A stretch of DNA of 64,000 bases. Origin: Fibrobacter sp. UWB2. GTDB lineage: Bacteria; Fibrobacterota; Fibrobacteria; Fibrobacterales; Fibrobacteraceae. Location: contig NZ_MWQK01000005.1 of assembly GCF_002210425.1 (NCBI RefSeq), forward strand, positions 310,001 through 374,000. Reading direction: 5' to 3'. The position numbers and the translations under genes are program-made. Positions 11,245 through 64,000 of this stretch are shown here, piece after piece; positions within the stretch are counted from its first letter, which is position 1, and each line of letters begins with the position of its first letter. The notes beneath the pieces are model-generated. The model was not told where the DNA came from. It worked only from the letters and a program-made list of their open reading frames with translations, and did no database searches.

Positions 11245-12873
11245 TTAGAAAAGAGCGCCATAAAGCACTATATCGTCCAGATAGAATTCTGTTCCATTTC
11301 TTACGAAGAAATGCAGCTGGCGGACATCGTCCTTGAGCGTATTCCAAGCGATATAGCAGTTGCTCACATCCTGGGCGGTATAGCACAGGTCATCGTATTT
11401 CACGACATAGCGCGTCCATTTCTGCGAATTCAGGTCCTTCCATTCCGAGGCGGCCTTGAGCGAGAGCCCAGCGACTTCGGATTCACGGGTCCAGTTTTCA
11501 AGAGACACGCGAATCTGGCCCGAGCCCTTGGCATAGAACGAAATAGAATCGAGCGTGGAGAGGTTCCAGCCTTCGTCGCGGAGGAACATGCCGGTCAAAA
11601 CCCAAGCGTAAATATTATTCGTTCCCACCAGGTTGTACTTTCCGTGGAACACCTTGGACTTGCGCTCGTTATCCGTATCGAACGACTTGGACAGAATCTT
11701 GGAGCCAACAGAATCCGTGCTAAAATACCAGTTTCCGGTATCCTTCACGTTTTCGAAGTTCTGCATCACGACATACGGGTAATCGAAATCAGCAGAGCCC
11801 TTGGAAGGCGCAATGCGCTTTGTTACATACAAGCTATCTTTAGTAGTGACAACATAGATATCGAGCGAATCATTCGTCGGGAGTGTCGGGAGTGTAAACG
11901 TTCCTTCTTCGTTCGTCTTCGTCAAGACGTCAAGGCCATAGACACCCACCCAGGCATACTTTTCACCGGCATGGAGCGTCACGCGGCTCATGTAATTTGC
12001 CGTCTCCTGGAGCTTAACCGTATCAAGCTCTGCAATCTGCTTTGCCGAAAGCACCTTGGAATAGGCGGCACCCGACTGCATCACCGTGAGGCGGTAATCG
12101 CCAGACTTCAAGGAATCAATGACAAAGAGACCATCCTTGTCAGCATAGGCGTCCGCTTCGGCAATGACGTTACTCACGTGCAGAGAATCGACACGGGCGT
12201 GAGCCTTGCGGATTGCAAGCGATGCATACGGAACAACCTTGCCATCTGCCACCGCCACAAACTTAACCTTCCCGGCGTACGGGTCCGGCTTTTCGGGCTG
12301 GAGGTCAATCATTTCCGTTTCGTTCGGCGAAAGCTTTACGGACAAGTCTTCATAGACCGTGTTGTCGTCACCGCGCAAGAAGTACACCTGCAACGAGTCG
12401 TTCGACGGCAACTGAGCGAGCATAAAGCGTCCCGTCGAATCGGAGCGCACAAGCACGTCCATGCCGCGCACGCCCACCCAGACGTAGTCGCATTCTTCAG
12501 GCACTTCGGCCAAGCCGCCAAGGGCTGCCGTCGGTTCAAGGTTCACACTACCCAAGGTCGTATCGCCCGAGTAAAGTCCTGTGTATGCCGAACCGCCATA
12601 CACGATCGTCAAGCGGTACTTGCCTTCCGGAGCCTCGAACGAGAAGTTACCGAGGGAATCCGCGTAGAAGTCCGCGTTCACAATTTCATTAGTAGCGCTA
12701 TCGGCCGTCGAAGTGTGATCAACACTCCTGACCGCCACACGAGCATAGGACGCCACAGCACCATTGCCCAAGTAGGCAATGCCGTTCGTCGTTTCGCTGC
12801 CGGGGCCTCCTGCGACCTTATCCGAGCAGCTCCAAAGCATAAGAGCTGAAAGTATGCAGGCTAGCCTTTTCAT
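11245..12873 (-). CDS. Lipoprotein with repeated regulatory-like beta domains and a CBM11-like C-terminus
   Basis: The N-terminus MKRLACILSALMLWSCSDKVAGG is a lipoprotein signal with the acceptor Cys at residue 16. The body has repeated carboxypeptidase-regulatory-like beta-sandwich units (YADSLGNFSFEAPEGKYRLTI, YADKDGLFVIDSLKSGDYRLTV), alternating with related units (YVWVGVRGMDVLVRSDSTGRF, YAWVGVYGLDVLTKTNEEGTF), so it appears to be a two-fold duplication. The last 170 residues (NFENVKDTGNWYF, LDSISFYAKGSGQIRVSLEN, FYLDDIVLYG) resemble CBM11-like carbohydrate-binding domains. The gene overlaps the TIGR02147 gene by 4 bp (ATGA). A cell-envelope polysaccharide-binding role is inferred, not shown. 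Confidence 0.75.
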   Translation of the reverse strand: MKRLACILSALMLWSCSDKVAGGPGSETTNGIAYLGNGAVASYARVAVRSVDHTSTADSATNEIVNADFYADSLGNFSFEAPEGKYRLTIVYGGSAYTGLYSGDTTLGSVNLEPTAALGGLAEVPEECDYVWVGVRGMDVLVRSDSTGRFMLAQLPSNDSLQVYFLRGDDNTVYEDLSVKLSPNETEMIDLQPEKPDPYAGKVKFVAVADGKVVPYASLAIRKAHARVDSLHVSNVIAEADAYADKDGLFVIDSLKSGDYRLTVMQSGAAYSKVLSAKQIAELDTVKLQETANYMSRVTLHAGEKYAWVGVYGLDVLTKTNEEGTFTLPTLPTNDSLDIYVVTTKDSLYVTKRIAPSKGSADFDYPYVVMQNFENVKDTGNWYFSTDSVGSKILSKSFDTDNERKSKVFHGKYNLVGTNNIYAWVLTGMFLRDEGWNLSTLDSISFYAKGSGQIRVSLENWTRESEVAGLSLKAASEWKDLNSQKWTRYVVKYDDLCYTAQDVSNCYIAWNTLKDDVRQLHFFVRNGTEFYLDDIVLYGALF

Positions 12874-13706
12874 TTTGACTTCTCCTGCAGTTTCTTAGTA
12901 AAAGCAAGCGGGAACAGCTGAACGTTCAGCTGGAACACCGTATCGTCACCCGTACCATCTTGAGAAAGACGCAGCAAGTCCGAGCGGAACTCCTTGATCT
13001 TTTCGCGAATGAGCTGGATATCGTTCATGTTGAACGTCATCGTCACCGTGCTGATATCGCGCAGAGGAGGCGCATGCCGTTCAAGCGATTCACCCGCGAG
13101 GCGAATCGTCTCCTTCTGGAATGTCCGAACCGCTTCGGATCTCCAGTTACCACCTGTACTCACAAATGTATCATTCACTTTCCAGTACCCGTCCTTACCC
13201 TCAGAAATCATGTTCAGGTCGTGCAGGAGCTTGATAGCATCCTTCGCCTGCTCCACCGTGATAGCCGGCGTGCAGCATTCGGCAAGACCTTCATAATCAT
13301 CTTTAAAATTACAAATACCAATTACAGAACGGATAGCGTTGTAGTACCAATGGCGGTAAAATTCAAGTTCTTTTTTGGCAAGGCGCTTTAAAGGGATGCC
13401 CTTCAGTGCCTGCATCTTCTCATAATGGTTCAATGCTTCCTGGTCGCTTTTCGCACGACCGAAGTACACAAGTTCCGACCAGTAGGCAGTTTCCTTCTCG
13501 TCAAGCTCGAAGAATTCGGCCATCGGCTTGATGAAGTTTACCGCGAGGTGGATCTTGCCCTGCGAAATACGGAGGAGGTTGCCGGGGTCTGCACCGAGCT
13601 TCATAGCCATGTATCGCCAGGATATGACGGTCTTACGCTTCTTGAAATCTTCAAAAGCATCCCTAATCCATTCGCGATAATCGGTATATTCAAAAATCGG
13701 TTTCAC
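12870..13706 (-). CDS. TIGR02147/DUF4423-type regulatory protein
   Basis: This is a member of the Fibrobacter paralogous family TIGR02147, related to DUF4423 proteins with a Cro/C1-like N-terminal helix-turn-helix. The start FEYTDYREWIRDAFEDFK and the HTH-like span SWRYMAMKLGADPGNLLRIS...GKIHLAV (about residues 24-50) are characteristic. The C-terminus (LRDISTVTMTFNMNDIQLIREKIKEF, then FQLNVQLFPL) matches the shared end of the family. The start is GTG, supported by GAGGAA about 6 bp upstream. Length 278. It overlaps the following lipoprotein gene by 4 bp, the same arrangement as in the other two cassettes (58373, 61853). DNA binding is an inference from the fold. Confidence 0.85.
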   Translation of the reverse strand: MKPIFEYTDYREWIRDAFEDFKKRKTVISWRYMAMKLGADPGNLLRISQGKIHLAVNFIKPMAEFFELDEKETAYWSELVYFGRAKSDQEALNHYEKMQALKGIPLKRLAKKELEFYRHWYYNAIRSVIGICNFKDDYEGLAECCTPAITVEQAKDAIKLLHDLNMISEGKDGYWKVNDTFVSTGGNWRSEAVRTFQKETIRLAGESLERHAPPLRDISTVTMTFNMNDIQLIREKIKEFRSDLLRLSQDGTGDDTVFQLNVQLFPLAFTKKLQEKSK

Positions 13707-51115: not shown

Positions 51116-54100
51116 CTATTTTTTCAGGAGCATCACATTTTCGGTCGCCATGCCGCCCACTTGCAGCACGCCAACATAGCGGCCCCGGGCAATTTCTCCA
51201 GCATTAAGTGTTTCGAAATGCACACCCGTTGCTCGGCGACCAAGATCAAACACCCGCACCACTCGACCTTGCATGTCGATGAGCGAGAACTTCACCGCAG
51301 CCGCTGCAGGGATTTCAAAACGCACGGCGATGTCACCGCCTTGGAACACAGCACCGAGGGAAGCATTACGAACAACCACCTTTTCGCTAAAGCGAACGCT
51401 CGTCGGAGATTCAACGCGAAGTTCCATCGTAGAAGCCTTGCCCCAAAGCGTATCGTTCTCGACAAGCACGCCTACACGGTAAAGCACGTTGAACGTTCCA
51501 GAAGGTGCATTTGCATTTTCCAAAGAATCCAGCAAAGCCTCGCTTGCAGAATCCAGCTTGAGCACCTTTTTCGCAGACGAATCCATCACGAAAGCGTCGT
51601 CCAGCAGTTTGCCGCGAACGTTTTTCGCAAGCGACTTGTTGTCTTTGTACGAAACATTTTCACTTGCGGCAACAGGCGGATTCGGCAAACCGCGAAGCAG
51701 CGGATAGCTCACGCCTTCTTGCATGTACCACACAGAATCGAAGTCAAATTCCTTGAAAGAGTTCTTCAACATCATTTGTACGTTAGTCAAGCCTTTGCCC
51801 GACATTGTAGAGTCGCTACAAGCATCGGCAAGGTAGTAGAATTCATCCGAAGGTTGCGATTTCGCAGGCAAGCCGGTGCAAAAACGGATTCCGTCTTTAA
51901 CTGATTTTCCAGAAGCGTACCCCCTCACCTTCGTATCGTTACCATTGACCCCGACAAAACCAAAGCCATAAAACTCTTCTACTGCCGACATATCACCCGT
52001 CGAATAGCAGTCTTCAATTACAGCTTGATTGTTATTGACAAAGTTGCCCGTACTCTCTACATTTCCTGTAGAATAGGATCGCTTGATAGTTCCATCATTT
52101 TCGCCAACAAAACCGGCAGCCGCGTTTGCATTTCCCATCGCAAACGAGCGTTCGATCAAACCTTCGTTCTTGCCGACAAATGCACCAGAATAACTAAAAA
52201 TGCCCGTGCCCTTGGCACTTCCGGTAGCATAGCTTTCAGAAATAGTAGTTTGATTCAAAGCAGCAAAGCTGCCGACATAACTCGAACCCACAACATCGAC
52301 GGATGCATGCAAACCTTTCAATTCCTTGCCATAAGCTTTACCAATCAGGCCACCGATATAGTTGAGGTTTTTCGCATCAATAATGCCTGTTGCCGTAGAG
52401 TTCGTGACCGTTCCGCTATCGACCGCGACAAGGCCAGCAATGCCTTCAATGACATAATACTCCGAGATTTCGCCACCATCTTCGTAAGAAAAGGATAAAT
52501 CACCCCTAGACGATTCTTGACCAGACACATTGACATTCGCTTTGCTTTCGCTGATAGTTCCGGCAGCTGTGTTCAGGGCAGCAATACCGCCCATGAAACC
52601 GCTACTCCCCTTTAGGGTCGCATTAACGGTCGCTTTCTCGATGGATCCCTTGTTCAGCACGGCAACACCAGCAGCGCACCATCCCCCCTCCCATCGCATA
52701 TCGACTTCGGCACCGACAATGTTTCCGTAATTCACAAGTGCAATTCCAGAAACGTTGTTGCTATTATTAACCTTCCCTTTGACCGATACATTTTCGATAG
52801 AGCCATAGTTTCTGAACACGAAGCCTGCACTTTGATAAATGCTATCCATCAAGACATCGACATTCACATTACGAATCGTTCCTTTATTCACAGTGGCAAC
52901 ACCGCCAATTTTCAATTCACGATTGCGACCAATAGAATACCCCTTGAAAGACAAACTATCTACGATTGCAGACTGCGCAACAGTATCGATAAATCCAATT
53001 GCCTTATGATCCTTATCCCAAAATCCCGTAAACAAGCTGTCGATGCTATGACCGCCACCATGGAATTCGCCGGTAAAAGCACCGGTATCCTGTTTTGCGT
53101 AACCGCCAAGGACAACACCGTAACAGTTGCAGAATTCTTCCAACACATCGTACTTACCAATAGGCTTGAATCCTGTTCCACCGACAGCAAAACGTTCATC
53201 CGTCCTGGAAGCAGTGGCATCGATATCGTTGGCCAAGCGATAAACGGCCGACAACTTGTATTTTCCGAATCCGATTGATTTCAAGTCTCCGTAGGTCTTG
53301 ATCAAGAACGGGTCTTTTTCCGTACCGGAACCGGCCATTTTCATCATGGTCTGATCCACAGCCTGATTCGGATAAATCTTTTCCTTCATTGTCTTGGATA
53401 TATAGTAAGGCTTAGTCAGCCACGACAGATAGGGATAAGTCGAATCTGCTGCGATCTTCCAGGTTGAATCGAAATCCCAGCCTTCGTAGTTTTCCTTCTT
53501 GACCATCTCTGTTGTATTGCGGAGATCCCCCGCAGCCGTCGTATTAACATACCAGAGTGTCGTATCATAATAGACCGAGGTGTAGGTCGACTTGTTGTCA
53601 GAGCCCGCAAGGCCACCCCATTTAGAATCGCCCGTAACTTGACCTGCGGCAAACGAGTTCTTCACAGTCGCATTGTCCGAATAGCCCGCCAAGCCGCCGA
53701 CATTCTTTGTTCCCACGACATTTGCAATCGAATAGCAGTCCGCGACACTCGCCTCGCCCAAAAAGCCCACGAGACCGCCCACGTTTTCCTTGCCCGAGAC
53801 CAGGAATCTAGACGCGCTCCTCACGACAGAGCCGGCAGATTTCTTACCGGCAAGAGAGCCAACGTAATTTTCGCCGGCAACATCATACTTGATAAAGATG
53901 TTTTCGACCGTAGCACCATTATCGACACCGGCCAGGACGCCGACATAGTCCTTACCACGGATGGCACCCCTAGTATTCGCAGGCCCATACGAATAGCTTT
54001 CTCCAAGATACGAAGCCGTATCAAAGACAACATTGCTTACCTTGGCACCCTTCGCCAGAGCCCGGAAAAGTCCCACCGAATCTTCGTCGGGGCGATTGAT

Positions 54101-56875
54101 ATTCAAGCCCGCAATTATCTTGTTGTTACCGATAAAGACACCGCTGAATTTTCCAATCGGTTCAAAGCCCTTACATACAGTACTGTCGGCATTGCAATTT
54201 TCCTTGAACGAGACCGTAGCATTGATATTGCCCATGAGTTTGTAGTATGCATCAAGGCCGTATTCGTATTTGCCAATATACTTGAGATCATCGTAATTAT
54301 AAATTTTATAGGGGTTCGTTGCAGTCCCCGCTCCGGCAAGCACATTGACCGTCCCGTCATCCTTGAGCGTTCCCGGAAGCAGAGGTTCCATCCCCTTGAA
54401 ATACGGATAAGAAACGCCTTCCTGGATAGTCCATACATTTACAAAGTCATAGCCCTGGAACGTTCCCTGTTTCAGCATCTCCGCGGTTGTCTTGCCATTT
54501 CTATCATAATCAGCAAGAGAGCTATCGAAGAAGCAAGTGTTTGAATCCAAGGAACTGGAAAGCGAAAAGCCGGCAAATCCCCGTCCATCCGAAGCCTTGA
54601 TCATACTCGCAGAATAGACACGATAGATGCTTGGCGAATAGGAATCGACGAAACCGACAACGCCACCGACACGTTCATATCCCTTAATGACATTGATAGA
54701 AAAACCGTTTTCCAACCTAGTAGAAGCATCGCCTATCAAGCCGCCAACATACGTTGTTCCCTTAATGTTTCCAGTAGTGCCAACGACATTAATGCTATCA
54801 CCTACAGCCACCCCAATCAAGCCGCCAACAGACGACTCACCTTTGACATCGCCATTGAACGACACGACATTATGGATTAAAGACAAGCGTGCTTCGCCAG
54901 CCAAGGCGCCCACACACCAAGAGCCGACCACCTTCGTATTTTGCAGAGTCAAGTTTCGGACTGTCGCACCTTCCATATAACCGAACATTCCCGTAAAGTC
55001 GCGATTCGGCTCATCAATCGTCAGATTCTTGATAACATGATTTTTACCGTCAAACGAGCCCGTAAAAGCACGTACGCTGTCGCCAATCGGTTCAAATTTC
55101 AAACCCGAAGCATCGATATCCTTTGTCAATTCGTAATTAGCTATTAGCGGATAGGCAATGTCATTTCCGATTTTCTGGAGTTCAGCAAAAGTCGAGATTT
55201 CAATCTTGTTGGGAACTGCCATATAACTTGAAGTCCCCCAAACCGTATCGCCCTTGTTTACGACACCAATTCGGTAACCGAAATAGAGCGAATCTCTCCT
55301 AAGCGTCTTGCCATTCTCAGTAGAATCTATATTATCGCTCCATCTCGCCCAGCCAAGCCATTTACCGACAAGTTCGCCCTCCACATCGAAAAGCGAAGCA
55401 ATCTTCGGAGTCTCTTGCCATTTCGGGGCTGATGTCGGAACCGCAACCGGAATCGGAGATTTTTTCATAAAAGGATTATTCACCAAGTAGGGGAACGATT
55501 TACCTTCATCAATGTTCCAATAGCGAATAAATTTCCCTGTAGGGCTATAGCAATAACCTAAATGCACATAGTAGTCGCAAGTGTCAGTACCGTCAATGAC
55601 ATATTCATCATAACCTAAAGTATCCCAGCCCGCAAACGACGCAAATTTCATCATTTTTGCGGTCGTTAAGCCTGTGCCACCCGCACTCGTATCAAGTCCC
55701 GAAATCTCGGTATTCCAGTATGAACCCACAACCGCATCGGATGCACTTCCGACAAGTCCACCAACGTGGCTATTTCCCTGAACGACATTTGCCGCATATG
55801 AATATTGAGCCGTTCCGTTACCCACAAGGCCACCCACATATTCATCGCCACGAACCGCACCCATCGCAAAAGAGTTTGCCACCCCGCTACTTCCGCCAAT
55901 ACCGCCAACATAACGTTCGCCTTCGACGGATCCAAGTGCATAAGAAGCGTTTACAAAGCCGCCATTGCCGACAATTCCACCTACTTTATCACCAAAGTAA
56001 TAAAAACCATAATGCATCAAGTCCATTGTCGAAACACATTCATTGATATCGCCTTTGGAATATCCGACAATACCGCCGACATCATCTACGTCATCCTCCC
56101 AAGGAACAATCGTACCACTAGAACGCGACTGATAAACATTACCGGTCAAATATCCGACAATACCACCCACATCCTGATCCAAAATAATGATATTCACATC
56201 GGCTTCTGCATGGGCAACATCCATATCTGTTTCACCGACAATGCCGCCAACTCTTTGCGAGCCCTTGATGTCACCTTGGAACGAGACATCTTTGAGAACA
56301 GCTTTATCATTGTAGCGTTTCGTACCCTGACCGACAATACCACCCACATAATTTTGCCCTTGGACAAAGCCGTTCGTCACATGCACATTCTTGATAGAGC
56401 CCATCTGCTTGGCGGCAACACTTGCCACAAAATTCGATTCTGTTACGCGACCGGTCACATGAATACGGTCGAATTTCAAGTTAGAAACAGAACCACCCAA
56501 ATAAGAGATAAATGCAACATCATTTTCACACGGGAGCCAAATGGTCAAGTTGTTAATGGTATGGTTCTTTCCGTCGATATTACCCCAGAATATAATGCTA
56601 TCGGCGGCATCCTTGTTTTTTCCGATGGGAATGAATCCATTGCAGCCGTCTTCGTTGCACATCTCGTTTTTCGAAGCCGAAGCGTCGATATCCTTCGTCA
56701 AGACGTAATCCGAAGAATAGAGATAAGCGCCCTTGCCTATCGCCTTGAGGTCTTCGTAGTCTTCGATTTGGAACGGTTTACTTGCGGAACCGTCGCCTTT
56801 CATGGTGCCGTTAGCCGCAAAAGAGTGAATCGCAAATAGCGATAAAACAACAGTAAAAATGAATTGCGGTTTCAT
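51116..56875 (-). CDS. Giant GLUG-repeat surface protein with C-terminal secretion-type domain
   Basis: The ATG at 56875 is preceded by GAGGAA and starts a signal peptide (KPQFIFTVVLSLFAIHSFA); the product has 1,919 residues. The body holds four similar blocks. Each opens with a line such as QIEDYEDLKAIGKGAYLYSS, a LTKDIDASAS-type strand and a GNIDGKNHTINNLTI-type strand, and then has many GLUG repeats (VGGLVG, VGGIVGYSKGD, GGLVGFLGEASVADCYS). GLUG repeats build beta-helix passengers in adhesins. The last 90 residues (FEIPAAAAVKFSLIDMQGRV, VLQVGGMATENVMLL) look like a type IX sorting domain. It is the third gene of the cassette that begins at 59242, 35 bp after the FISUMP lipoprotein gene. 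A surface adhesin role is likely; the target is unknown. Confidence 0.85.
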   Translation of the reverse strand: MKPQFIFTVVLSLFAIHSFAANGTMKGDGSASKPFQIEDYEDLKAIGKGAYLYSSDYVLTKDIDASASKNEMCNEDGCNGFIPIGKNKDAADSIIFWGNIDGKNHTINNLTIWLPCENDVAFISYLGGSVSNLKFDRIHVTGRVTESNFVASVAAKQMGSIKNVHVTNGFVQGQNYVGGIVGQGTKRYNDKAVLKDVSFQGDIKGSQRVGGIVGETDMDVAHAEADVNIIILDQDVGGIVGYLTGNVYQSRSSGTIVPWEDDVDDVGGIVGYSKGDINECVSTMDLMHYGFYYFGDKVGGIVGNGGFVNASYALGSVEGERYVGGIGGSSGVANSFAMGAVRGDEYVGGLVGNGTAQYSYAANVVQGNSHVGGLVGSASDAVVGSYWNTEISGLDTSAGGTGLTTAKMMKFASFAGWDTLGYDEYVIDGTDTCDYYVHLGYCYSPTGKFIRYWNIDEGKSFPYLVNNPFMKKSPIPVAVPTSAPKWQETPKIASLFDVEGELVGKWLGWARWSDNIDSTENGKTLRRDSLYFGYRIGVVNKGDTVWGTSSYMAVPNKIEISTFAELQKIGNDIAYPLIANYELTKDIDASGLKFEPIGDSVRAFTGSFDGKNHVIKNLTIDEPNRDFTGMFGYMEGATVRNLTLQNTKVVGSWCVGALAGEARLSLIHNVVSFNGDVKGESSVGGLIGVAVGDSINVVGTTGNIKGTTYVGGLIGDASTRLENGFSINVIKGYERVGGVVGFVDSYSPSIYRVYSASMIKASDGRGFAGFSLSSSLDSNTCFFDSSLADYDRNGKTTAEMLKQGTFQGYDFVNVWTIQEGVSYPYFKGMEPLLPGTLKDDGTVNVLAGAGTATNPYKIYNYDDLKYIGKYEYGLDAYYKLMGNINATVSFKENCNADSTVCKGFEPIGKFSGVFIGNNKIIAGLNINRPDEDSVGLFRALAKGAKVSNVVFDTASYLGESYSYGPANTRGAIRGKDYVGVLAGVDNGATVENIFIKYDVAGENYVGSLAGKKSAGSVVRSASRFLVSGKENVGGLVGFLGEASVADCYSIANVVGTKNVGGLAGYSDNATVKNSFAAGQVTGDSKWGGLAGSDNKSTYTSVYYDTTLWYVNTTAAGDLRNTTEMVKKENYEGWDFDSTWKIAADSTYPYLSWLTKPYYISKTMKEKIYPNQAVDQTMMKMAGSGTEKDPFLIKTYGDLKSIGFGKYKLSAVYRLANDIDATASRTDERFAVGGTGFKPIGKYDVLEEFCNCYGVVLGGYAKQDTGAFTGEFHGGGHSIDSLFTGFWDKDHKAIGFIDTVAQSAIVDSLSFKGYSIGRNRELKIGGVATVNKGTIRNVNVDVLMDSIYQSAGFVFRNYGSIENVSVKGKVNNSNNVSGIALVNYGNIVGAEVDMRWEGGWCAAGVAVLNKGSIEKATVNATLKGSSGFMGGIAALNTAAGTISESKANVNVSGQESSRGDLSFSYEDGGEISEYYVIEGIAGLVAVDSGTVTNSTATGIIDAKNLNYIGGLIGKAYGKELKGLHASVDVVGSSYVGSFAALNQTTISESYATGSAKGTGIFSYSGAFVGKNEGLIERSFAMGNANAAAGFVGENDGTIKRSYSTGNVESTGNFVNNNQAVIEDCYSTGDMSAVEEFYGFGFVGVNGNDTKVRGYASGKSVKDGIRFCTGLPAKSQPSDEFYYLADACSDSTMSGKGLTNVQMMLKNSFKEFDFDSVWYMQEGVSYPLLRGLPNPPVAASENVSYKDNKSLAKNVRGKLLDDAFVMDSSAKKVLKLDSASEALLDSLENANAPSGTFNVLYRVGVLVENDTLWGKASTMELRVESPTSVRFSEKVVVRNASLGAVFQGGDIAVRFEIPAAAAVKFSLIDMQGRVVRVFDLGRRATGVHFETLNAGEIARGRYVGVLQVGGMATENVMLLKK

Positions 56876-56910
56876 ATTTTTCCTCATAGGTTCAAATAAC
56901 ATAAAAGCTC

Positions 56911-58389
56911 CTAGTTTTTAAGGCAACGGACTGAAAATCCGTTATTCTTCGGAAATTTTTTCACAGAAACGGTACCGTCGTTTCCAAAATAAATGGCGTA
57001 TGCAGCATTCTCGCTAGCCTCTGAATATTCAGCGGAACTCCAGATATAAGCTTTAAGCCCCTCGGAATCGAAGGAGCCGCTACGATACCATTCGCCATCG
57101 GCGACAGCTGAAAAACCGTAATCGTTCGTGCCATCCAAAGCATCCCAGCCAAATTGCGACTTGAGCACGGCAGCGGCCTTGGCCACTCCGCCAGCCACAG
57201 CAATCAAGGTATTCCACGATGTCGTATCCGGCAAGCGGTAGCCATCAGGACAAAGCGAATCTTTTGCCACATTCCAAGTGTAAAGACGGCCCATCAGGCT
57301 GCACTTTTCGGGATTGTTGTCATAGCACCACATATTCCCTTTCAATTCCGGCATTTTTACGTCATCAGCATAGTTCAAGTTCTGGGCCATCCAAACTTGT
57401 TCGCCGATTTTTACGGTTTTATAAACTTGTCCATCGCGGTTATCGACAATGGAATCGTACTGCACTTGCGGATTTAGAAAAGATTCCCGTGTCAAGCTTT
57501 CGCCAAAGCGTTCCACATACGTTTCGAACGCAGGAATCTCGCTTGCATAATTCAAGCCTTCGAGGTTTTGGCGAATTTTTTCAATTTGACCGTTTTCTTT
57601 TGCGGTGGCTACCCATTCCGCGACTTCCGACTTCGTTTCGTCATCGTCCCACAAACCGTTTTTCGCAATGGCAGAGCTGACTTCGTTTGTACGTTCTTCA
57701 AGCTTTGCTACATCCGCATCGGCTTGCATCAGCACGCTCACCGCAAGGAGTGCCGCGTTTCCGTCGCCTTTTTCGAAGATGTTCAAGTTTTCAAATTCAT
57801 CAACGTTATTCGCAATATCAAACGATGTGAGCACTTCGCGTTCCGCTTGGGCTTTCGCCGCCGCAAAGTCCATTTTCTCAACCGTCACAAGGTGCTTTAG
57901 GCGCTCGTATTCCAAGTGCGTGAGCAAGTTGACGTTCACAGTTTTTCGAACGCTAAGGTCGGTCAGAGCCTTGAGCGAGAGCTTATCCGAAGACTCTTTT
58001 CCGGTCACTTCGTTGAGGTAATAACCCGTCACTTCGAACAACGCACACGAAGATTTGAGATTGACGCCATCTATAGCAAAGTCGCCCTTGTCGCTTTTTA
58101 CGTTGCCTGTAAATTTTTCGTCAGTCAGCTCAAACGTCTTGCAATCCACGCCCTGCACGCTCACAACAGAACCCGTCACAAACGGTCCCTTCTGCGAAAC
58201 GCCCGCCACATCCAAATTCTTGACGGCGTAAATGCCGGCATCGTCCGAAGAACCGCCTGCAACCTCGGAATTCGAACATGCGACAAAGACGCACGAAATC
58301 AACGCAAGCAAAAGAATCATCAACTTTCGAAAACCGTTGATTTGAACTTTTCCAGTACAACCCGCCAAACCATTAACGTCGCATTTCAT
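56911..58389 (-). CDS. FISUMP-domain lipoprotein (one domain)
   Basis: The 492-residue product has a lipoprotein signal (LMILLLALISCVFVAC). The N-terminal 250 residues (VKNLDVAGVSQKGPFVTGSV, TVNVNLLTHLEYERLKHLV) are shared with the paralogue at 59425. The C-terminal domain (about 305-492) is a Fibrobacter succinogenes major paralogous (FISUMP) domain: YDSIVDNRDGQVYKTVKIG, VWMAQNLNYADD, YTWNVAKDSLCPDGYRLPD and YIWSSAEY...VRCLKN. Function of the family is unknown. The ATG at 58389 is chosen with GGAG about 10 bp upstream. It overlaps the TIGR02147 gene by 17 bp. Confidence 0.85.
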   Translation of the reverse strand: MKCDVNGLAGCTGKVQINGFRKLMILLLALISCVFVACSNSEVAGGSSDDAGIYAVKNLDVAGVSQKGPFVTGSVVSVQGVDCKTFELTDEKFTGNVKSDKGDFAIDGVNLKSSCALFEVTGYYLNEVTGKESSDKLSLKALTDLSVRKTVNVNLLTHLEYERLKHLVTVEKMDFAAAKAQAEREVLTSFDIANNVDEFENLNIFEKGDGNAALLAVSVLMQADADVAKLEERTNEVSSAIAKNGLWDDDETKSEVAEWVATAKENGQIEKIRQNLEGLNYASEIPAFETYVERFGESLTRESFLNPQVQYDSIVDNRDGQVYKTVKIGEQVWMAQNLNYADDVKMPELKGNMWCYDNNPEKCSLMGRLYTWNVAKDSLCPDGYRLPDTTSWNTLIAVAGGVAKAAAVLKSQFGWDALDGTNDYGFSAVADGEWYRSGSFDSEGLKAYIWSSAEYSEASENAAYAIYFGNDGTVSVKKFPKNNGFSVRCLKN

Positions 58390-59242
58390 TTTCACCAACT
58401 CCACTTACTTTATTTTCTTCACATTTGTCAAGCCGTTCACTTATCGGGAATAGTTGCAAATTCAAACGGTACACGCGCTGCGTCTTGTTACTTTCCGTAG
58501 CAATCGCAATAACACGGCGACGGCATTCCAAAAGTTCCTTCTTGATTTTTTCGTAAGAATCCTGCGTCAGCCCCACGACAACTCCCGACATAGAGCGTTC
58601 TGCAAGTGGCAAGTCCAACGCCTTCACGGCAAGCTCACCCATCTGGCGCTGTAAATCTTTCGCGGCAATCGGCACCGCATCCACGGAGCCCATCGATATG
58701 GACTTGTCCGTCTGCACATAATTCCCATTTCGGTCTTTTTTCAGGAGATTCGCATCTTCCAAAAACTCAAGCGTTTCAACAGCTTCCGCTGTAGAAATTT
58801 TCGGTTTGCACGCACGGGCCATTTCGGCAGGCCTTGCACCAGGCATATGCGGGGCAAGTTCACGGAGCAACGGATTTTTCCAAGACTTGTAGTAATCGAA
58901 TTCTTCGCCACCGAGCACACGAATCTTATGCGCTCTAGCCAACGCACAGCGTTTTTCGAACGCCGCCATTTTGGCCTCGTCCCCTTTGGCATGGGCGTAC
59001 GTCACCATCAAAACAAAATACGTCTTTTCGAATCCGGCAAGGCCCATGGCGTTCGCAACAGAACTTGCGGCACTAACGCTCAGATTCTTTTTCCCTTCAG
59101 CAACATACTTCAAAAAAATTGCCGACGTGAAACCGGCATTCTGAGCAAACTCACGCCAAGTAAAAGCGGAGTCGCGCTTGCGTTCATCGTAGTAATCCTG
59201 GATGAACTTGCGATAATCTGTATATTCAAGAATCGCCTTCAT
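58373..59242 (-). CDS. TIGR02147/DUF4423-type regulator of the GLUG cassette
   Basis: The 289-residue product starts MKAILEYTDYRKFIQDYYDE and carries the HTH-like span TWREFAQNAGFTSAIFLKYV...GKKNLSVSAASSVANAM (about residues 28-65). The C-terminal half has SISMGSVDAVPIAAKDLQRQ and MGELAVKALDLPLAERSMSG; the end is YRLNLQLFPISERLDK. It is closely related to the gene at 61853 across its whole length, which indicates duplication of the cassette. It overlaps the lipoprotein gene by 17 bp. The ATG is 5 bp after a TATATTTG box. Regulation of its own operon is proposed from the shared palindromes upstream. Confidence 0.85.
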   Translation of the reverse strand: MKAILEYTDYRKFIQDYYDERKRDSAFTWREFAQNAGFTSAIFLKYVAEGKKNLSVSAASSVANAMGLAGFEKTYFVLMVTYAHAKGDEAKMAAFEKRCALARAHKIRVLGGEEFDYYKSWKNPLLRELAPHMPGARPAEMARACKPKISTAEAVETLEFLEDANLLKKDRNGNYVQTDKSISMGSVDAVPIAAKDLQRQMGELAVKALDLPLAERSMSGVVVGLTQDSYEKIKKELLECRRRVIAIATESNKTQRVYRLNLQLFPISERLDKCEENKVSGVGENEMRR

Positions 59243-59247
59243 GATTA

Positions 59248-59255
59248 CAAATATA
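59248..59255 (-). promoter_or_regulatory. -7 box of the GLUG cassette
   Basis: TATATTTG on the minus strand (perfect TAnnTTTG) ends 5 bp before the ATG of the regulator gene. The message should be almost leaderless. Confidence 0.65.
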
Positions 59256-59271
59256 GTTTTTAAACATTATT

Positions 59272-59373
59272 GGAATACAAAAATTGCCGTTTTTAGCCTA
59301 ATTTTTACGTTTTTAGTCATTTTTAAACGAGTTTGCAAAATTTTAGAACACAAGTTGTATCCCTGGGATACAA
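59272..59373 (-). promoter_or_regulatory. Operator-like region: palindrome and half-sites upstream of the GLUG cassette
   Basis: TTGTATCCCTGGGATACAA (59355-59373) is a perfect 19-bp palindrome centred 122 bp before the start codon. Further half-sites are GAACACAA (59346-59353) and GGAATACAAAAA (59272-59283). The same elements with almost the same spacing precede the sister cassette at 62769-62867. The region between them is AT-rich. Confidence 0.65.
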
Positions 59374-59400
59374 AAAAAGACCTCGCCGTGAATAGCGAGG
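59374..59400 (-). terminator. Terminator after the double-FISUMP lipoprotein gene
   Basis: On the minus strand CCTCGC and GCGAGG form a stem with an 8-base loop (59400-59381), followed by TCTTTTT. The last T bases touch the palindrome at 59373. Confidence 0.88.
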
Positions 59401-59424
59401 CCTCGGGATGATGAGAACGAAAAA

Positions 59425-60982
59425 TTAGTCCTTCACGCAGCGGACACTTTGTCCATAAGTTTTTGAGCCTTGGTACAAATAGAATTTGGTATAAATGTTG
59501 TTTATATTCGAATACTGGGCTTCATACGCATCCTCTTCTTCGGAGGTCCAATAATAGACATTAGAACCAATGTTGCTCCAGTTAGTTTCAGAGATTCTTC
59601 GTCCAGTCGGGAGTGCCGTAAATCCATAGGCATCCACACCGTTATTGTCTTCTGTTCCGGCATAATCCCATCCGGTCAAAGCCTTGAGGGTATCGCCGGC
59701 CACGCCAGCATTCCCTAAGTACACGCTCAACCAGCCCCATTCATCACGAACCGGCAAGTGCCAACCGTCAGGACAAATTCCCTGTATCTGGCGATTAAGT
59801 CCACAAGTTTTGCCATAACCGCAATTCAATGGGTCCTTAGGATCATTTGCTAGCGCAACTGAATCAATCGCCGCAGCCCAAGTGTAATAGCGACCGCTCA
59901 CCTCGCAATATTTCGTGGTATCGTGGTAGCACCAGCTATTGCCCTTCAAACTCGGAGTCTTCACGCTATCGGCGTAGTTCAGATTCTCCGCCATCCACAC
60001 CTTTGAATAATCCCTTTCTTTCACTTCGATTTTCACAACTTTATACACACGCTTATCGCGAGGGTCAACCATTGAGTCGTATTTGATATTCGGATTAAAA
60101 CGCAATTCCTTAGGCACGTCCCAGCTCCAGCCGGAAGGAACTACAGAACTGCTACTCATTTTTACTTGACTACTGCTAGACACAACCACACTGCTACTCG
60201 ATTTTGCAGAACTGCTGCTAGACTTCGTTTCGCCAACACTAGAACTTGAAGAAGATTTAATCGCTGCAGTCGAAGGATCACCCTTGATGCAACGTACACT
60301 CTGTCCATATTTTTTTGAACCTTGGAACAAATAGAATTTAGTATAAATGTTGTTTATATTCGAATATCGCGCTTCATACGTACCATCCTCTTCGGAACTC
60401 CAATAATAAACATTAGAACCAACATTGCTCCAGCTAGATGTAGAAACCATCCTTCCGGTCGGAAGCGCCGCAAATCCATAGGCATCTACGCCGTTATTGT
60501 CAGCCGTTCCGGCGTAATCCCAGCCAGTCAGCGCCTTGAGGCTATCTCCGGCCACGCCAGCGTTCCCCAGAGCTACGCTCAACAATCCCCATTCATGGAG
60601 CGTCGGCAAATGCCAGCCGTCAGGGCAAATTCCCTGCACTCCGCGATTAATTCCACACGTCTTGCCATAACCGCAATTCAGCGGATTCTTTGAATCGTTT
60701 GCCAAAGCCACAGAGTCTATCGCCGCCGCCCAAGTGTAATAGCGACCGCTTACCTTACAATTTTTCTCATCATTATTGTAGCACCAGTTTTGGCCTTTCA
60801 AGCTCAGCGTCTTGACGCTATCGGCATAGTTCAAGTTTTCGGCCATCCACACTTGTGAATAATCATGCTCCTTCACTTCGATTTTTACAACTTTGTACAC
60901 TTGCTTGTCGCGCGGGTCGATTATCGAGTCGTACTTGATATTCGGATTCAGGCGAGCGGACTGCGGCACATCCCAGCTCCAC
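59425..60982 (-). repeat. Tandem FISUMP domain duplication, copies offset by 852 bp
   Basis: Three anchor points all give the same offset: ATAAATGTTG at 59491 and 60343, AGTGTAATAG at 59881 and 60733, CCAGCTCC at 60121 and 60973. Each copy is about 700 bp and carries one whole FISUMP domain; the remaining 150 bp encode the poly-Ser linker. 852 bp equals 284 codons, so the frame is kept. Confidence 0.85.
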
Positions 60983-61872
60983 CCATCTGTCTTGACGCTG
61001 TCGCTATTTTTTTCCTTTGAAACATTAGTAGCAAACGCATCGACCGCCGTTTCAAAATCGGGAACTTCATTTGCGAATCCCCAATTTTCCATATTCTTAC
61101 GAATGGAATCCATCACGGCTTTAGCCACGGCATTCGCAATCCAGTCGGTAATCGCTTTTTTCGTATCATCATCGTTCCACTTGCCGCTTTCTGCAAAGGA
61201 ATCATTGAATTTATCCAGACGTTTCGCAAGCGTTTTCACATCGGCATCGCCTTGCATCAACACGCTTATAGCAAGGAGCGTCGCATCCGCATCGCTTGTT
61301 CCAAAAATATCCAAATCTTCAAATTCGGCCGATTCACCAGCCATCCCGAATGCGGCAAGCACTTCCCTTTCAGCCAATTCCTTAGCCTCGTCGAAAGTCT
61401 TGCCCTTTTCAGTCACATAGTACATCACGCGCTCGTATTCCAAGTTCGTAAGCAAGTTGACATTCACATGCGTACGATCCTTAAGATTCGTTAACGCACG
61501 GAGCGTCATTTTATCCGAGACTTTTTTTCCCGTCATTTCGCTACGGTATTCGCCTGTCACTGCAACAACAGCACAAGTCGTAGACAAGTTCACCTTTTCA
61601 ACAACAAATTCACCCATGTTATTTTTGACTTCACCCTCAAAAACTTCATCCGTGAATTCCATTGTCTTGCAGTCGATTCCCTGCACCGTCACCGCGGAGC
61701 CCTTCACGAACGGGCCCTTTTGGGAAACGCCAGCAATATCTAGATTCTTGATGGCAAGCCCCGCATCTTCGGTAATGCCGCCCGCAACTTTATCTTCAGA
61801 ACAAGCAGCGAACATTCCTGCCGAAACAATGGCCATCCATAAAGTAAATGATTTACTTATGAGTTTTTTCAC
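59425..61872 (-). CDS. FISUMP-domain lipoprotein with two tandem FISUMP domains and a poly-Ser linker
   Basis: A near-perfect Shine-Dalgarno sequence (AAGGAGAAGG) stands just before the GTG at 61872, giving 815 residues and a 20-bp overlap with the regulator gene. The signal ends in IVSAGMFAAC. The N-terminal 290 residues (IKNLDIAGVSQKGPFVKGSA) match the paralogue at 56911. FISUMP domain 1 spans about residues 294-525, then a Ser-rich linker (SSSSSSVGETKSSSSSAKSS...), then domain 2 (about 581-815). The two domains are nearly identical in DNA, offset by 852 bp. Landmarks in both are NPNIKYDS, VWMAENLNYADSVKT, ICPDGWHLP and VYYWSSEE or VYYWTSEE. Function of the family is unknown; an outer-membrane surface location is likely. 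Confidence 0.88.
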   Translation of the reverse strand: MKKLISKSFTLWMAIVSAGMFAACSEDKVAGGITEDAGLAIKNLDIAGVSQKGPFVKGSAVTVQGIDCKTMEFTDEVFEGEVKNNMGEFVVEKVNLSTTCAVVAVTGEYRSEMTGKKVSDKMTLRALTNLKDRTHVNVNLLTNLEYERVMYYVTEKGKTFDEAKELAEREVLAAFGMAGESAEFEDLDIFGTSDADATLLAISVLMQGDADVKTLAKRLDKFNDSFAESGKWNDDDTKKAITDWIANAVAKAVMDSIRKNMENWGFANEVPDFETAVDAFATNVSKEKNSDSVKTDGWSWDVPQSARLNPNIKYDSIIDPRDKQVYKVVKIEVKEHDYSQVWMAENLNYADSVKTLSLKGQNWCYNNDEKNCKVSGRYYTWAAAIDSVALANDSKNPLNCGYGKTCGINRGVQGICPDGWHLPTLHEWGLLSVALGNAGVAGDSLKALTGWDYAGTADNNGVDAYGFAALPTGRMVSTSSWSNVGSNVYYWSSEEDGTYEARYSNINNIYTKFYLFQGSKKYGQSVRCIKGDPSTAAIKSSSSSSVGETKSSSSSAKSSSSVVVSSSSQVKMSSSSVVPSGWSWDVPKELRFNPNIKYDSMVDPRDKRVYKVVKIEVKERDYSKVWMAENLNYADSVKTPSLKGNSWCYHDTTKYCEVSGRYYTWAAAIDSVALANDPKDPLNCGYGKTCGLNRQIQGICPDGWHLPVRDEWGWLSVYLGNAGVAGDTLKALTGWDYAGTEDNNGVDAYGFTALPTGRRISETNWSNIGSNVYYWTSEEEDAYEAQYSNINNIYTKFYLYQGSKTYGQSVRCVKD

Positions 61873-62737
61873 TTTCCTTCTCCTTTTTAAACACAAGTCC
61901 TTTATTTTTATCATCACAATCGCCAAGTCGTTCGCTCAGCGGGAACAACTGCAAATTCAGGCGGTACACCTGTTCCGTCTCGTCATCCTCACTCGCAATC
62001 GCCACAATGCGGCGGCGAAAATCCGCGATTTCCTTCCTGATTTTTTCGTAAGCACGGCGCGTGAGCCCCATGGTAAGCCCCGACATGTCACGTTCCGAAA
62101 GCGGCAAGTCCAAAGCCTTCACCGCAAATTCCCCCATCTGGCGCTGCATATCACGAGCCGCCACAGGCACCGCATCGACCGATCCCATCGAAAGGGATTT
62201 GTCTGTCTGTTCGTAGTTTCCGCTCTTGTCCTTCTTCAAGAGCTTCGCGCGCACCAAAAAGTCTAGTGTCTCGGAGACCTCCGCCGCAGAAATCTGCGGC
62301 TTGCACTTACGAGCCATGTCAAGAGGCTTGGCACCAGGCATGTGCGGAGCAATCTCGCGCAGCACCGGATTCTTCCACGACTTGAAATAATCGAATTCCT
62401 CGTTCCCGAGCACACGCACCTTGTGGGCATGCGCGAGCGCACAGCGTTCTTCGAACGCGGCTCGTCTCGCCTTGTCATCTTTCGCATGCGCATACGAAAC
62501 CATCAGAACAAAGTACGTCTGTTCGAACCCGGCAAGCCCCATCGCCGCAGCAACGGACCCTGCCGACCCTACACTCAGATTCTTTTTGCCCTCGCAAACG
62601 TACTTCAAATACACAGCCGACGAAAATCCTGCATCACGCGCAAAATCACGCCACGTAAAAGCCGAGCTGCGCTTGCGTTCATCGTAGTAATCCTGGATGA
62701 ACTTGCGGTAGTCTGTGTATTCTACAATCTCCTTCAT
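61853..62737 (-). CDS. TIGR02147/DUF4423-type regulator of the double-FISUMP cassette
   Basis: The ATG at 62737 is chosen because a TATATTTG box ends 5 bp before it; the longer frame would start inside the promoter. The 294-residue product begins MKEIVEYTDYRKFIQDYYDE, with HTH-like TWRDFARDAGFSSAVYLKYV and GKKNLSVGSAGSVAAAMGLA. The C-terminal half has SLSMGSVDAVPVAARDMQRQ and MGEFAVKALDLPLSERDMSG, and ends near YRLNLQLFPLSERLGD. It is a close paralogue of the 58373 gene and more distant from 12870. It overlaps the lipoprotein gene by 20 bp, which implies translational coupling. Confidence 0.87.
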   Translation of the reverse strand: MKEIVEYTDYRKFIQDYYDERKRSSAFTWRDFARDAGFSSAVYLKYVCEGKKNLSVGSAGSVAAAMGLAGFEQTYFVLMVSYAHAKDDKARRAAFEERCALAHAHKVRVLGNEEFDYFKSWKNPVLREIAPHMPGAKPLDMARKCKPQISAAEVSETLDFLVRAKLLKKDKSGNYEQTDKSLSMGSVDAVPVAARDMQRQMGEFAVKALDLPLSERDMSGLTMGLTRRAYEKIRKEIADFRRRIVAIASEDDETEQVYRLNLQLFPLSERLGDCDDKNKGLVFKKEKESEKTHK

Positions 62738-62742
62738 GTGTA

Positions 62743-62750
62743 CAAATATA
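62743..62750 (-). promoter_or_regulatory. -7 box of the double-FISUMP cassette
   Basis: TATATTTG on the minus strand matches TAnnTTTG exactly and ends 5 bp before the ATG at 62737. Confidence 0.65.
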
Positions 62751-62768
62751 GACATTTATACACTTTTC

Positions 62769-62867
62769 GGAATACAAAAATGGCGTTTTTAGCCAAATTT
62801 TACCAATTTTGCATAATTTACGCAAATTTTAGCAATTCAGAACACAAACTGCGTATTCCAGGAACAC
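62769..62867 (-). promoter_or_regulatory. Operator-like region upstream of the double-FISUMP cassette
   Basis: An imperfect palindrome GTATTCC-A-GGAACAC (62853-62867) is centred 123 bp before the start; half-sites GAACACAA (62840-62847) and GGAATACAAAAA (62769-62780) follow. Layout and spacing match those at 59272-59373. Confidence 0.6.
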
Positions 62868-62902
62868 AAAAAAGACCTCGCCAGCGTTTCGCCAGCGAGA
62901 TC
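62868..62902 (-). terminator. Terminator after the partial FISUMP gene
   Basis: On the minus strand CTCGCTGGCG and CGCTGGCGAG (with a two-base mismatch) form a stem around AAA, followed by GTCTTTTTT. It sits in the same place relative to the next cassette's palindrome as the terminator at 59374. Confidence 0.8.
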
Positions 62903-62933
62903 CGTTTTCCTCCTTACTCCCCCTCCAAACTAA

Positions 62934-64000
62934 TTAGTTTTTCACACAACGTACGCGAGCTATTTTTCTAGGTTCAGAGATAGTCCTAGCATAACCGATA
63001 GAAATTTCGAACGTCGAGAGATCCGGTAGCCTGTAATTTCGATAGTTGTCAAGGTAAGAACGAACCCAATTTTCTTCGCCATGACTATCTTCTCCATAAT
63101 AGTTCCACAACGAATCCAATTCTGCCTCGATATTTTCGCCAAAAGACTTATTCGAGTAGGTGTGGTAATAGAGTTCGAGATACCTCTTGTCCATTGGTTC
63201 AAGATTAAAGTCAAACTTATTGTAGAACACGCCCATCAAATCCTTTCCAAAAGCGGCATACCTATCCGTTCTCCAGGTTTCGTCAAGCAGATTGTTGATG
63301 CCACCGACATAAGCGATTAACGCCTCCCAATCCTTGCTACTGGAGATATGCCAGCCGTCAGGACAGATGCCTTGATGGACCGTTTTAATCACGACATCAT
63401 CAACAGGTTCCTTCATATACTTTTGATCAATTCGCATCGCGGTAGTCCAGCTATAAAGACCATTTTCAACGTAATTACCTGTCATAATACTACCCGGCGA
63501 ATACGCGGACACAGAGTACTCGAGATCTTCGGCCATCCACTCATAACTTTTCCCGCCAAATTCAAAACTTACGGTCTTGTATTCCTTGCCATCTCGCGGG
63601 TCTGTCATGGTCCCCGATCCATGCTCAATCTTCATCTTGAGGGAATCCAAATAACCTTTCGTCTCCATTTTCCAAGAGTAGCCATTGCAAAGGACATATC
63701 CCGAATCCGAAACTTTATATTCACCGGCGTCGAGATCGTAATATCTGATAGGCCTATTGAACGTTCTATACTCGCCCCAAAGGTCTTCTGTACAAAGTTC
63801 TACATTCCAGTAATTCAGCAAGAATAACTTGCTAAAATCATATTGCTTCTTCATAATCGTAAGAATGTCATACGACCCAGGGTCCGCATCTTCCTTTGCC
63901 CTCATGCCAGCTTCGCTTACACCTTCCATGTGGCTATAAGCTCTAGCCGTTGAATAAGCATAACTTGCGATGTTCATCATAATGGAGTCCCCAAGTTCAC
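62934..64000 (-). CDS. FISUMP-domain protein (5' end outside window)
   Basis: The frame is open to the window edge; six more codons (ELGDSI) are readable upstream of the first internal Met at 63980, so the start lies outside. The visible 355 residues end in a FISUMP domain: MTDPRDGKEYKTVSFEFGGK, YEWMAEDLEYS, YSWTTAMRIDQKYM, ICPDGWHISSSKDWEAL, then IARVRCVKN at the C-terminus. A long helical/charged stretch precedes it (YSTARAYSHMEGVSEAGMRA). This FISUMP domain is more divergent than those at 56911 and 59425. A terminator follows. Confidence 0.8.
   Translation of the reverse strand, partial: ELGDSIMMNIASYAYSTARAYSHMEGVSEAGMRAKEDADPGSYDILTIMKKQYDFSKLFLLNYWNVELCTEDLWGEYRTFNRPIRYYDLDAGEYKVSDSGYVLCNGYSWKMETKGYLDSLKMKIEHGSGTMTDPRDGKEYKTVSFEFGGKSYEWMAEDLEYSVSAYSPGSIMTGNYVENGLYSWTTAMRIDQKYMKEPVDDVVIKTVHQGICPDGWHISSSKDWEALIAYVGGINNLLDETWRTDRYAAFGKDLMGVFYNKFDFNLEPMDKRYLELYYHTYSNKSFGENIEAELDSLWNYYGEDSHGEENWVRSYLDNYRNYRLPDLSTFEISIGYARTISEPRKIARVRCVKN

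Follow-up and report, generated by a model that had tools for sequence, protein, structure and literature searches.

Putative operators of TIGR02147 regulator–lipoprotein cassettes in Fibrobacter vary with the predicted recognition helix

Introduction

Which protein reads the repeated sites in front of two neighbouring regulator–lipoprotein gene pairs, and what sets the letters of those sites? The question is raised by a stretch of 64,000 nucleotides from Fibrobacter sp. UWB2 (NCBI RefSeq assembly GCF_002210425.1, contig NZ_MWQK01000005.1, positions 310,001–374,000 of the forward strand), referred to below as the window, which carries two paralogous cassettes, each pairing a gene of the TIGR02147/DUF4423 family with a gene for a FISUMP lipoprotein. 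Fibrobacter is a main cellulose degrader of the rumen. An earlier note on this DNA had described a palindrome and half-sites in both promoters and had proposed that the TIGR02147 protein binds them and controls its own operon. Here these promoters are compared with those of paralogues and relatives, all lineages in the layout and code tests coming from one genus. We consider it probable that each cassette is an autoregulated operon read through a distal dyad and a proximal half-site whose letters are set by a code in the regulator; binding, looping, the sign of control and the signal are what we infer from sequence.

A common promoter layout in paralogue lineages

Upstream regions were fetched for six further paralogues (L019, L026, L018, L016, L022 and L004) besides the regulator of cassette 1 (L015); four fetched loci without a start motif (L172, L177, L197 and L220) were left out throughout. 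In five of the six further lineages a dyad, rc(H)-N3-H, where H is a half-site and rc(H) its reverse complement, with ACA NNN TGT as the middle part, is accompanied by a third H downstream; the arms are separated by N3 or N5 in the L015 lineage. The third copy lies at or just upstream of the −35 position, past A/T runs phased at 10.5 bp. The letters of H differ by lineage (TGTATTCC, TGTAGCATA, TGTATAATA, TGTACTATA and TGTTTCATA), so that GGRAYACAA, offered earlier as an operator for the whole TIGR02147 family, finds no support at that level.

The distance from the start of the dyad to the proximal site is 83.9 ± 1.4 bp, about eight turns, in 95 high-scoring rows from six lineages (L004 being represented by its own-genome member only). 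Because this distance was searched between 76 and 92 bp only, it is the narrow spread, and not the mean alone, that counts as evidence. In 102 spacers of six lineages, the power of the A/T runs relative to shuffled sequences is 4.0-fold at 10.5 bp, against 1.1 at 8 bp and 0.6 at 13–14 bp, and the phased spacer is probably curved DNA. A layout score of at least 18 is reached by 119 of 256 upstreams (112 of 238 after duplicate removal) and by 5 of 1280 dinucleotide-shuffled sequences. With variants admitted, and partly by eye, the layout is recognised in 12 of the 34 paralogues of the genome; the sites of L013, L014, L020, L021, L025 and L027 were read by eye.

The letters of the dyad recur at the proximal site. 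Each site was located without reference to the other, and 104 of 114 sequences, from five lineages, were usable. Agreement between a sequence's own dyad and proximal site is 5.24 of six variable letters, compared with 3.81 between lineages, and among the 120 pairings of lineages the true one comes first. Within the L004, L018 and L019 lineages, and slightly within that of L026, own sites agree better than they do with those of members having another H. Joint changes are also seen: in the GTAGCATA lineage, GTATCATA occupies both arms and the proximal site of L082, and one arm of L083; L127–L130 carry GTATAGTA at the proximal site as well as on one arm; and in the GTACTATA lineage, GTATCATT is found in L195 and others.

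Putative operator letters change with the predicted recognition helix

In the structure model of the regulator, considered below, the segment after 'GF' leads into a helix at residues 43–48 that is predicted to be the recognition helix. Among 211 distinct regulators, residue 3 of the helix is closely matched by base 4 of H: Pro goes with A in 100 of 108 cases, Ala with A or G in 38 of 39, and Ser, Gly or Cys with T, in the form TGTT, in 56 of 58, while Asp occurs with TATG in all six. Taken together, Pro or Ala at this residue is found with TGTA or TGTG in 141 of 147. Further correspondences involve KVV at helix positions 7–9, which accompanies G at base 5 in 27 of 32 cases as against 0 of 172 without KVV (counted before duplicate removal), and Asn at residue 4, which goes with TA at bases 5–6 in 40 of 45. 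KVV and TGTAG occur together in the L019 lineage and in three members (L268–L270) of the L004 lineage.

These simple residue–base counts include related sequences, and kinship is allowed for only in a tree count. For this, the tree was built with the helix residues masked, base classes were taken from the DNA alone and changes were counted by parsimony. The distinct set gives 8 residue changes, 13 base changes and 14 joint changes, which means that seven of the eight residue changes fall together with a change of base; when bases were made to evolve independently in 3000 simulations, at most 6 coincidences arose. An earlier set of 222 rows gave 8, 12 and 13 changes, with at most 5 coincidences in simulation; there, six Asp rows had been assigned the TATG class because of their Asp, so that the count is circular for that change.

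The composition of the sets bears on these figures. Two genome collections overlap, and 18 duplicates were removed for the 211-row set (L043 being the cassette of this genome itself). Thirteen rows were graded weak; L026, L102, L105, L106, L108 and L109, all with CGTATAATA, were entered by hand for the trees, and L097, L126, L150, L162, L174, L175 and L200 were left out. Seven rows with an out-of-register or unclear proximal site (L104, L163, L171, L173, L176, L190 and L213) were dropped from the 222-row tree, the conservation figures and the KVV counts, and are back in the 211-row set, five of them with the register reread by eye. Duplicate removal and row corrections moved the counts little.

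Binding of each regulator to its own sites is the simplest cause of this co-variation of letters and helix, and the earlier proposal of binding and autoregulation is favoured on that ground. One other, global regulator might own the sites, the TIGR02147 genes being mere members of its regulon, and the TTTTGT frame and nearly equal spacing shared by the lineages would fit such a factor. A single factor would not, however, predict letters that differ by lineage and change with the helix encoded by the neighbouring gene, and we regard this explanation as unlikely.

Observations that tell against the proposal

Several observations weigh against the reading just given. The code has exceptions among the 211 regulators (Pro with T in five, Pro with G in three, Ser with G in two and Ala with TATG in one, L163), the weak and omitted row L150 has TATG-like distal sites together with Ala, and the lineages share ancestry. 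An independent dyad core is lacking in 10 of the 114 sequences. Own sites of the L016 lineage agree with each other no more closely than with those of members that have another H (4.67 versus 4.69), and L004 proximal sites fit L026 dyads (5.25) more closely than they fit the mean dyad of the L004 lineage (4.74), as L004 and L026 share letters. Direct repeats of TTTGTTTTATA-like letters, with a proximal TTTTTGTTTT, take the place of the dyad in the L022 lineage, none of whose 26 members scores at least 18. Within the genome, the strict layout reaches 18 in 6 of 34 paralogues (L004, L016, L018, L019, L021 and L026); no full layout was recognised in 22 of the 34, 15 of them belonging to a divergent clade, and in a single-sequence joint test 10 of the 34 give p ≤ 0.05, some of them away from where the sites are expected. 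Nine unrelated places in the window (both strands) score at least 18, and neither cassette is among them.

The likeness of distal and proximal sites might also come only from recent duplication and A/T-rich composition. The regions are A/T-rich, the generic layout scores of the two cassettes (13.6 and 14.2) fall below the 18 mark, and unrestricted sharing of 9-mers between distal and proximal promoter parts is not significant, 1499 of 20,000 permutations reaching the observed value. Shuffled upstreams nevertheless seldom attain the layout score, and seven of the eight helix changes coincide with base changes, so that we hold this explanation to be very improbable. The case for the sites of the two cassettes is made by their orthologues and the wider family, not by their own layout scores.

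The two cassettes of the window

Both promoters carry the sites described in the earlier note to the base (Table 1), with 122 bp (cassette 1) and 123 bp (cassette 2) from palindrome centre to ATG, and the overlaps of regulator and lipoprotein genes are 17 and 20 bp as given there, with starts at ATG 58389 and GTG 61872. The letters of the palindrome stand as described; the element that recurs in relatives and paralogues is instead a dyad made of the palindrome's right half and what had been called its half-site, namely GGGATACA-ACT-TGTGTTCT or GGAATACG-N5-TGTGTTCT. The left TTGTATCCC of the palindrome is an extra inward half-site outside this dyad. The GLUG-repeat gene is probably the third gene of the cassette 1 operon. 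Upstream of the third TIGR02147 gene of the window (L005), which was inspected, no operator was recognised.

Table 1. Features of the two cassettes and the third family member, in window positions
Feature	Position	Strand	Basis or remark
TIGR02147/DUF4423 regulator, cassette 1 (L015)	58373..59242	−	TIGR02147 303.4 bits; PF14394
TIGR02147/DUF4423 regulator, cassette 2 (L008)	61853..62737	−	TIGR02147 333.8 bits
FISUMP lipoprotein, cassette 1	56911..58389	−	TIGR02145 177.7 bits; ATG start
Lipoprotein with two FISUMP domains, cassette 2	59425..61872	−	TIGR02145 351.2 bits, two stretches; GTG start
Large GLUG-repeat protein, cassette 1	51116..56902	−	PF07581; 8 bp past lipoprotein gene
Distal dyad GGGATACA-ACT-TGTGTTCT, predicted operator, cassette 1	59345..59363	−	direct reading; recurrent in relatives
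Perfect palindrome TTGTATCCCAGGGATACAA (extra inward half-site + left dyad arm), cassette 1	59355..59373	−	sole exact genome match
Half-site TTGTGTTCT, cassette 1	59345–59353	−	direct reading
Spacer with A/T runs, predicted curved DNA, cassette 1	59284..59344	−	10–10.5 bp periodicity (102 spacers, six lineages)
Proximal half-site TTTTTGTATTCC at −35 position, cassette 1	59272..59283	−	direct reading; conservation in relatives
TATATTTG, −10/−7-like element, cassette 1	59248..59255	−	5 bp ahead of ATG at 59242
Distal dyad GGAATACG-CAGTT-TGTGTTCT, predicted operator, cassette 2	62839..62859	−	direct reading; like layout in co-orthologues
Palindrome TTGTGTTCCTGGAATACGC, cassette 2	62851–62869	−	direct reading
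Half-site TGTGTTCT, cassette 2	62839–62846	−	direct reading
Spacer with A/T runs, cassette 2	62781..62838	−	direct reading; periodicity is a class property
Proximal half-site TTTTTGTATTCC, cassette 2	62769..62780	−	direct reading
TATATTTG, −10/−7-like element, cassette 2	62743..62750	−	5 bp ahead of ATG at 62737
Third TIGR02147 gene (divergent clade, L005), lipoprotein-like gene next	12870..13706	−	profile match

The 3.53-Mb genome has a single exact copy of the palindrome. If up to two mismatches are allowed, it is also met in cassette 2, within one coding region and ahead of a LamG-domain lipoprotein gene, the reversed-pattern control giving 0. When genomes of the genus were searched with the 58373 product, 37 of 61 gave a match (its own included), and one locus was fetched from each of 30 of these. 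Inspected by eye, the majority of the fetched upstreams have the palindrome, half-site, spacer, proximal half-site and TATATTTG at near-constant distances, so the recurrence of the layout in relatives that the earlier note had looked to is borne out. In 31 upstreams of the L015 lineage, which include the own sequence twice and were analysed before duplicate removal, the mean frequency of the top base is 0.75 in the dyad region, 0.85 at the proximal site and 0.97 in the −10-like element, as against 0.71 in the spacer, 0.61 between proximal site and −10 and 0.49 in the 5′ flank. The dyad region thus stands out from the 5′ flank but hardly from the spacer.

The distal palindrome abuts the T-run of a terminator-like hairpin of the preceding gene, and the palindromes might on that account be parts of terminators, or else recombination sites or RNA elements, rather than operators. 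We find this hardly credible: the dyad region is kept while the upstream flank changes, no Rfam family matches at the gathering threshold within 58000–64000, and the third copy at a fixed distance would be left unexplained.

Promoter architecture and mode of control

TATATT is present in 101 of 110 upstreams of the L015, L018, L019 and L026 lineages and ends a median of 7–8 bp before the ATG; the cassette mRNA is therefore probably leaderless.

The proposed mechanism is as follows. In each cassette a cytoplasmic one-component regulator would control the operon that encodes both itself and a surface lipoprotein. A dimer would sit on the distal dyad, rc(H)-N3/5-H, and the A/T-phased spacer of some eight turns, probably curved, would let the bound protein also reach the half-site at or next to −35, the looping or bending being suggested by the spacing together with the phased A/T runs. 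Protein at the proximal half-site would decide whether RNA polymerase fires. We lean towards repression by default, relieved by a signal read by the DUF4423 part, with activation as the alternative. The first residues of the recognition helix would set the letters of H, so that duplicated cassettes could gain different addresses and become partly insulated.

The same sites might instead serve a class II-like activator, the half-site replacing or adjoining the −35 element and the bound protein contacting sigma. In the L015 lineage the half-site is placed at −35 (the median distance from TGT to TATATT is 26 bp), and TTG(A/C/T)(C/A/T) is found 6–24 nucleotides past TGT in only 12 of 31 upstreams, both of which suit an activator. 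In the L018, L019 and L026 lineages, on the other hand, 77 of 79 upstreams (26/27, 29/29 and 22/23) have TTGNN past the half-site, and by eye it is often TTGAC about 17 bp before TATATT, resembling a strong promoter that needs repression. We take activation seriously and rather doubt it.

Lipoprotein partners

For 33 of the 34 regulators, a long open frame with a lipoprotein-like N-terminus starts between −74 and +18 bp from the regulator end. These calls come from a simple lipobox pattern in 29 of the 34 neighbours (in a few of them at a Cys before the likely one) and from inspection by eye in four. The sole exception is L017, whose locus (L280, G000:C7:60000-68000) has a pectate-lyase-like gene, matched below its cut-off, convergent on L017 and a further large secreted-protein gene upstream and divergent. 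The earlier note had offered the lipoprotein as output or sensor. Its role as a co-transcribed output, which we consider likely, is in keeping with its place as next gene and with two lipoprotein genes that have a like layout and no neighbouring regulator (see below); for a role as sensor nothing in this analysis speaks, and no route from lipoprotein to cytoplasmic regulator has been shown.

Both lipoproteins exceed the TIGR02145 (FISUMP) cut-off of 41.65. In a published comparison of Fibrobacteres genomes, all with a single exception have 17–119 copies of FISUMP, which is treated there as a putative cellulose-binding protein; the accessible part of that paper gives no description of FISUMP gene regulation (PMC4704652). 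Otherwise different lipoproteins of the genome often share an N-terminal pattern downstream of the Cys, approximately (V/T)AG followed by E(T/E), N and IA, possibly a sorting or export signal. At G000:C5:152486-163567 four regulator–lipoprotein cassettes (L009–L012) stand in tandem, with operators not clearly recognised except perhaps for L011.

Shared and orphan sites

The best reading of the genome-wide pattern is that TIGR02147 proteins regulate their own operons through operators that are only in part private, and that they would also bind some targets that are shared or orphan. Letters are common to the pairs L004/L026, L022/L027 and L008/L015, and these paralogues, having like helices, could cross-talk. 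A generic dyad pattern with at most one mismatch matches 12 places in the genome (reversed control 4); five of these, including the three that match perfectly, are at TIGR02147 promoters.

Six of the other seven places were examined, C11:6163 being left out. The dyads at C1:272700 and C2:424310 are upstream of lipoprotein genes without an adjoining regulator (L271, G000:C1:270000-275500, and L272, G000:C2:421500-427000), each with a 7-of-9 proximal copy at 83 bp. By the code, their address, TGTTGCATA, would be that of L020 (TSSSYMKVV), a regulator with no more than a weak version of it at its own promoter, and the two genes are candidate trans targets of L020. At C7:107027 (L273, G000:C7:104000-110500) the dyad TATGCAACA-CAA-TGTTGCATT, with a proximal match of 6-of-9 only, precedes a fibro-slime (TIGR02148) gene whose product has a tail of the type IX secretion system (T9SS) type. 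The dyad at C1:565564 is upstream of a secreted-protein gene and has no fitting proximal copy, and the remaining two places overlap open reading frames.

Clusters of GTATCAT-type half-sites were also seen upstream of a LamG-domain lipoprotein gene (L275, G000:C6:238000-243000) and a secreted-protein gene (L274, G000:C1:563000-568500). Runs of 11 C upstream of L027 and 9 C upstream of L029, just upstream of the site region, are possible slippage tracts for phase variation.

The regulator family and its predicted fold

The genome has 35 TIGR02147 matches, of which 34 are full and the remaining one is a fragment close to the end of a contig. The family is present in all 61 genomes of the genus searched and in 140 of 150 sampled from the phylum, and in none of 14 control genomes. 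A 73% identical regulator (L153) on a contig binned as Bacteroidales, CADCIQ010000185.1, probably reflects a misbinned Fibrobacter contig.

Both regulators of the cassettes exceed the TIGR02147 (Fsuc_second) cut-off of 50, over profile positions 1–271 of 272, and the DUF4423 (PF14394) gathering cut-off of 30 (98.2 and 104.3 bits). No Pfam family matches residues 1–100 of either at E ≤ 1, hence no N-terminal helix-turn-helix (HTH) profile. The description 'HTH-type' in the earlier note is accordingly not borne out by family annotation, where Pfam above cut-offs gives DUF4423 only, and derives from the fold predicted in an AlphaFold model.

In that model, residues 7–90 match HigA and P22 c2 with Z up to 8.1, HigA over residues 8–89 at a root-mean-square deviation (rmsd) of 2.7–2.8; the HTH of DdrO (6rnz_A) fits with an rmsd of 1.7 over 61 columns (E 0.51). 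Residues of about 113–185, with strands 167–169 and 175–177, resemble the winged HTH of MarR and DtxR (Z about 7); the Pfam search has a weak HTH_45 match (E 0.12), under the cut-off. The predicted local distance difference test score (pLDDT) is 90–93 across the block of residues 31–80. On this basis we predict two HTH domains, a Cro/CI-like one at the N-terminus and a winged one after it. The model as a whole is moderate (mean pLDDT 70, predicted template modelling score 0.42) and Z values of 7–8 can mean a common arrangement only, which tells against the assignment; Foldseek gave no structure match with E ≤ 0.001, and a sequence search of the PDB gave a single match (E 0.57).

Significance and comparison with known systems

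The transcriptional control of cellulases is named an unanswered question in the available portion of the Fibrobacter genome paper, which notes few regulators near cellulases (PMC3079729). The TIGR02147 family is a candidate for the control of surface and adhesion proteins in this genus, and what is proposed here is a first testable function for a family of so far unassigned role. It may be, though we are slightly inclined to doubt it, that the tens of switches per genome, almost all of them adjoining a surface lipoprotein gene of their own, insulated by the helix code and built on the eight-turn curved layout, provide a combinatorial selection of the surface proteins displayed, including orphan lipoproteins and perhaps the fibro-slime adhesin, through shared addresses such as TGTTGCATA. 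A readable specificity code would turn anonymous TIGR02147 genes into regulons predicted from sequence alone, and the paralogues would be a natural test bed for the insulation of duplicated regulators.

Both regulators are full-length members of TIGR02147/DUF4423, which carries no function in the libraries searched; the present analysis proposes for it an operator, a layout and a specificity code. In the accessible text of the open-licence PubMed Central (PMC) literature, preprints lying outside its scope, TIGR02147 is unmentioned and DUF4423 appears only in a Bdellovibrio proteome table; within the same literature, no operator was found described for the family, as the earlier note had supposed, and no account of the dyad–spacer–half-site layout was found.

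The predicted N-terminal fold is like that of the Cro/CI (XRE) repressors and the HigA antitoxins, and so is a short dyad operator near the own promoter, as bound by HigA and phage repressors. Unlike these, the cassette regulators have an additional, predicted winged-HTH domain and a third half-site about eight turns away. LysR- and AraC-type regulators combine a distal site with a site beside −35, DNA bending or looping, and control of their own promoter, features that are predicted here as well; the two regulators differ from them in that no LysR- or AraC-type profile is among their Pfam and NCBIfam matches, and in the spacing of about 84 bp over phased A/T runs. In the MerR family, according to the part of the study available, residues of the DNA-binding domain correlate with operator bases (PMC5045206). 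The evidence presented here is of the same kind, for a family with no described operator found and with members that stand beside lipoprotein genes.

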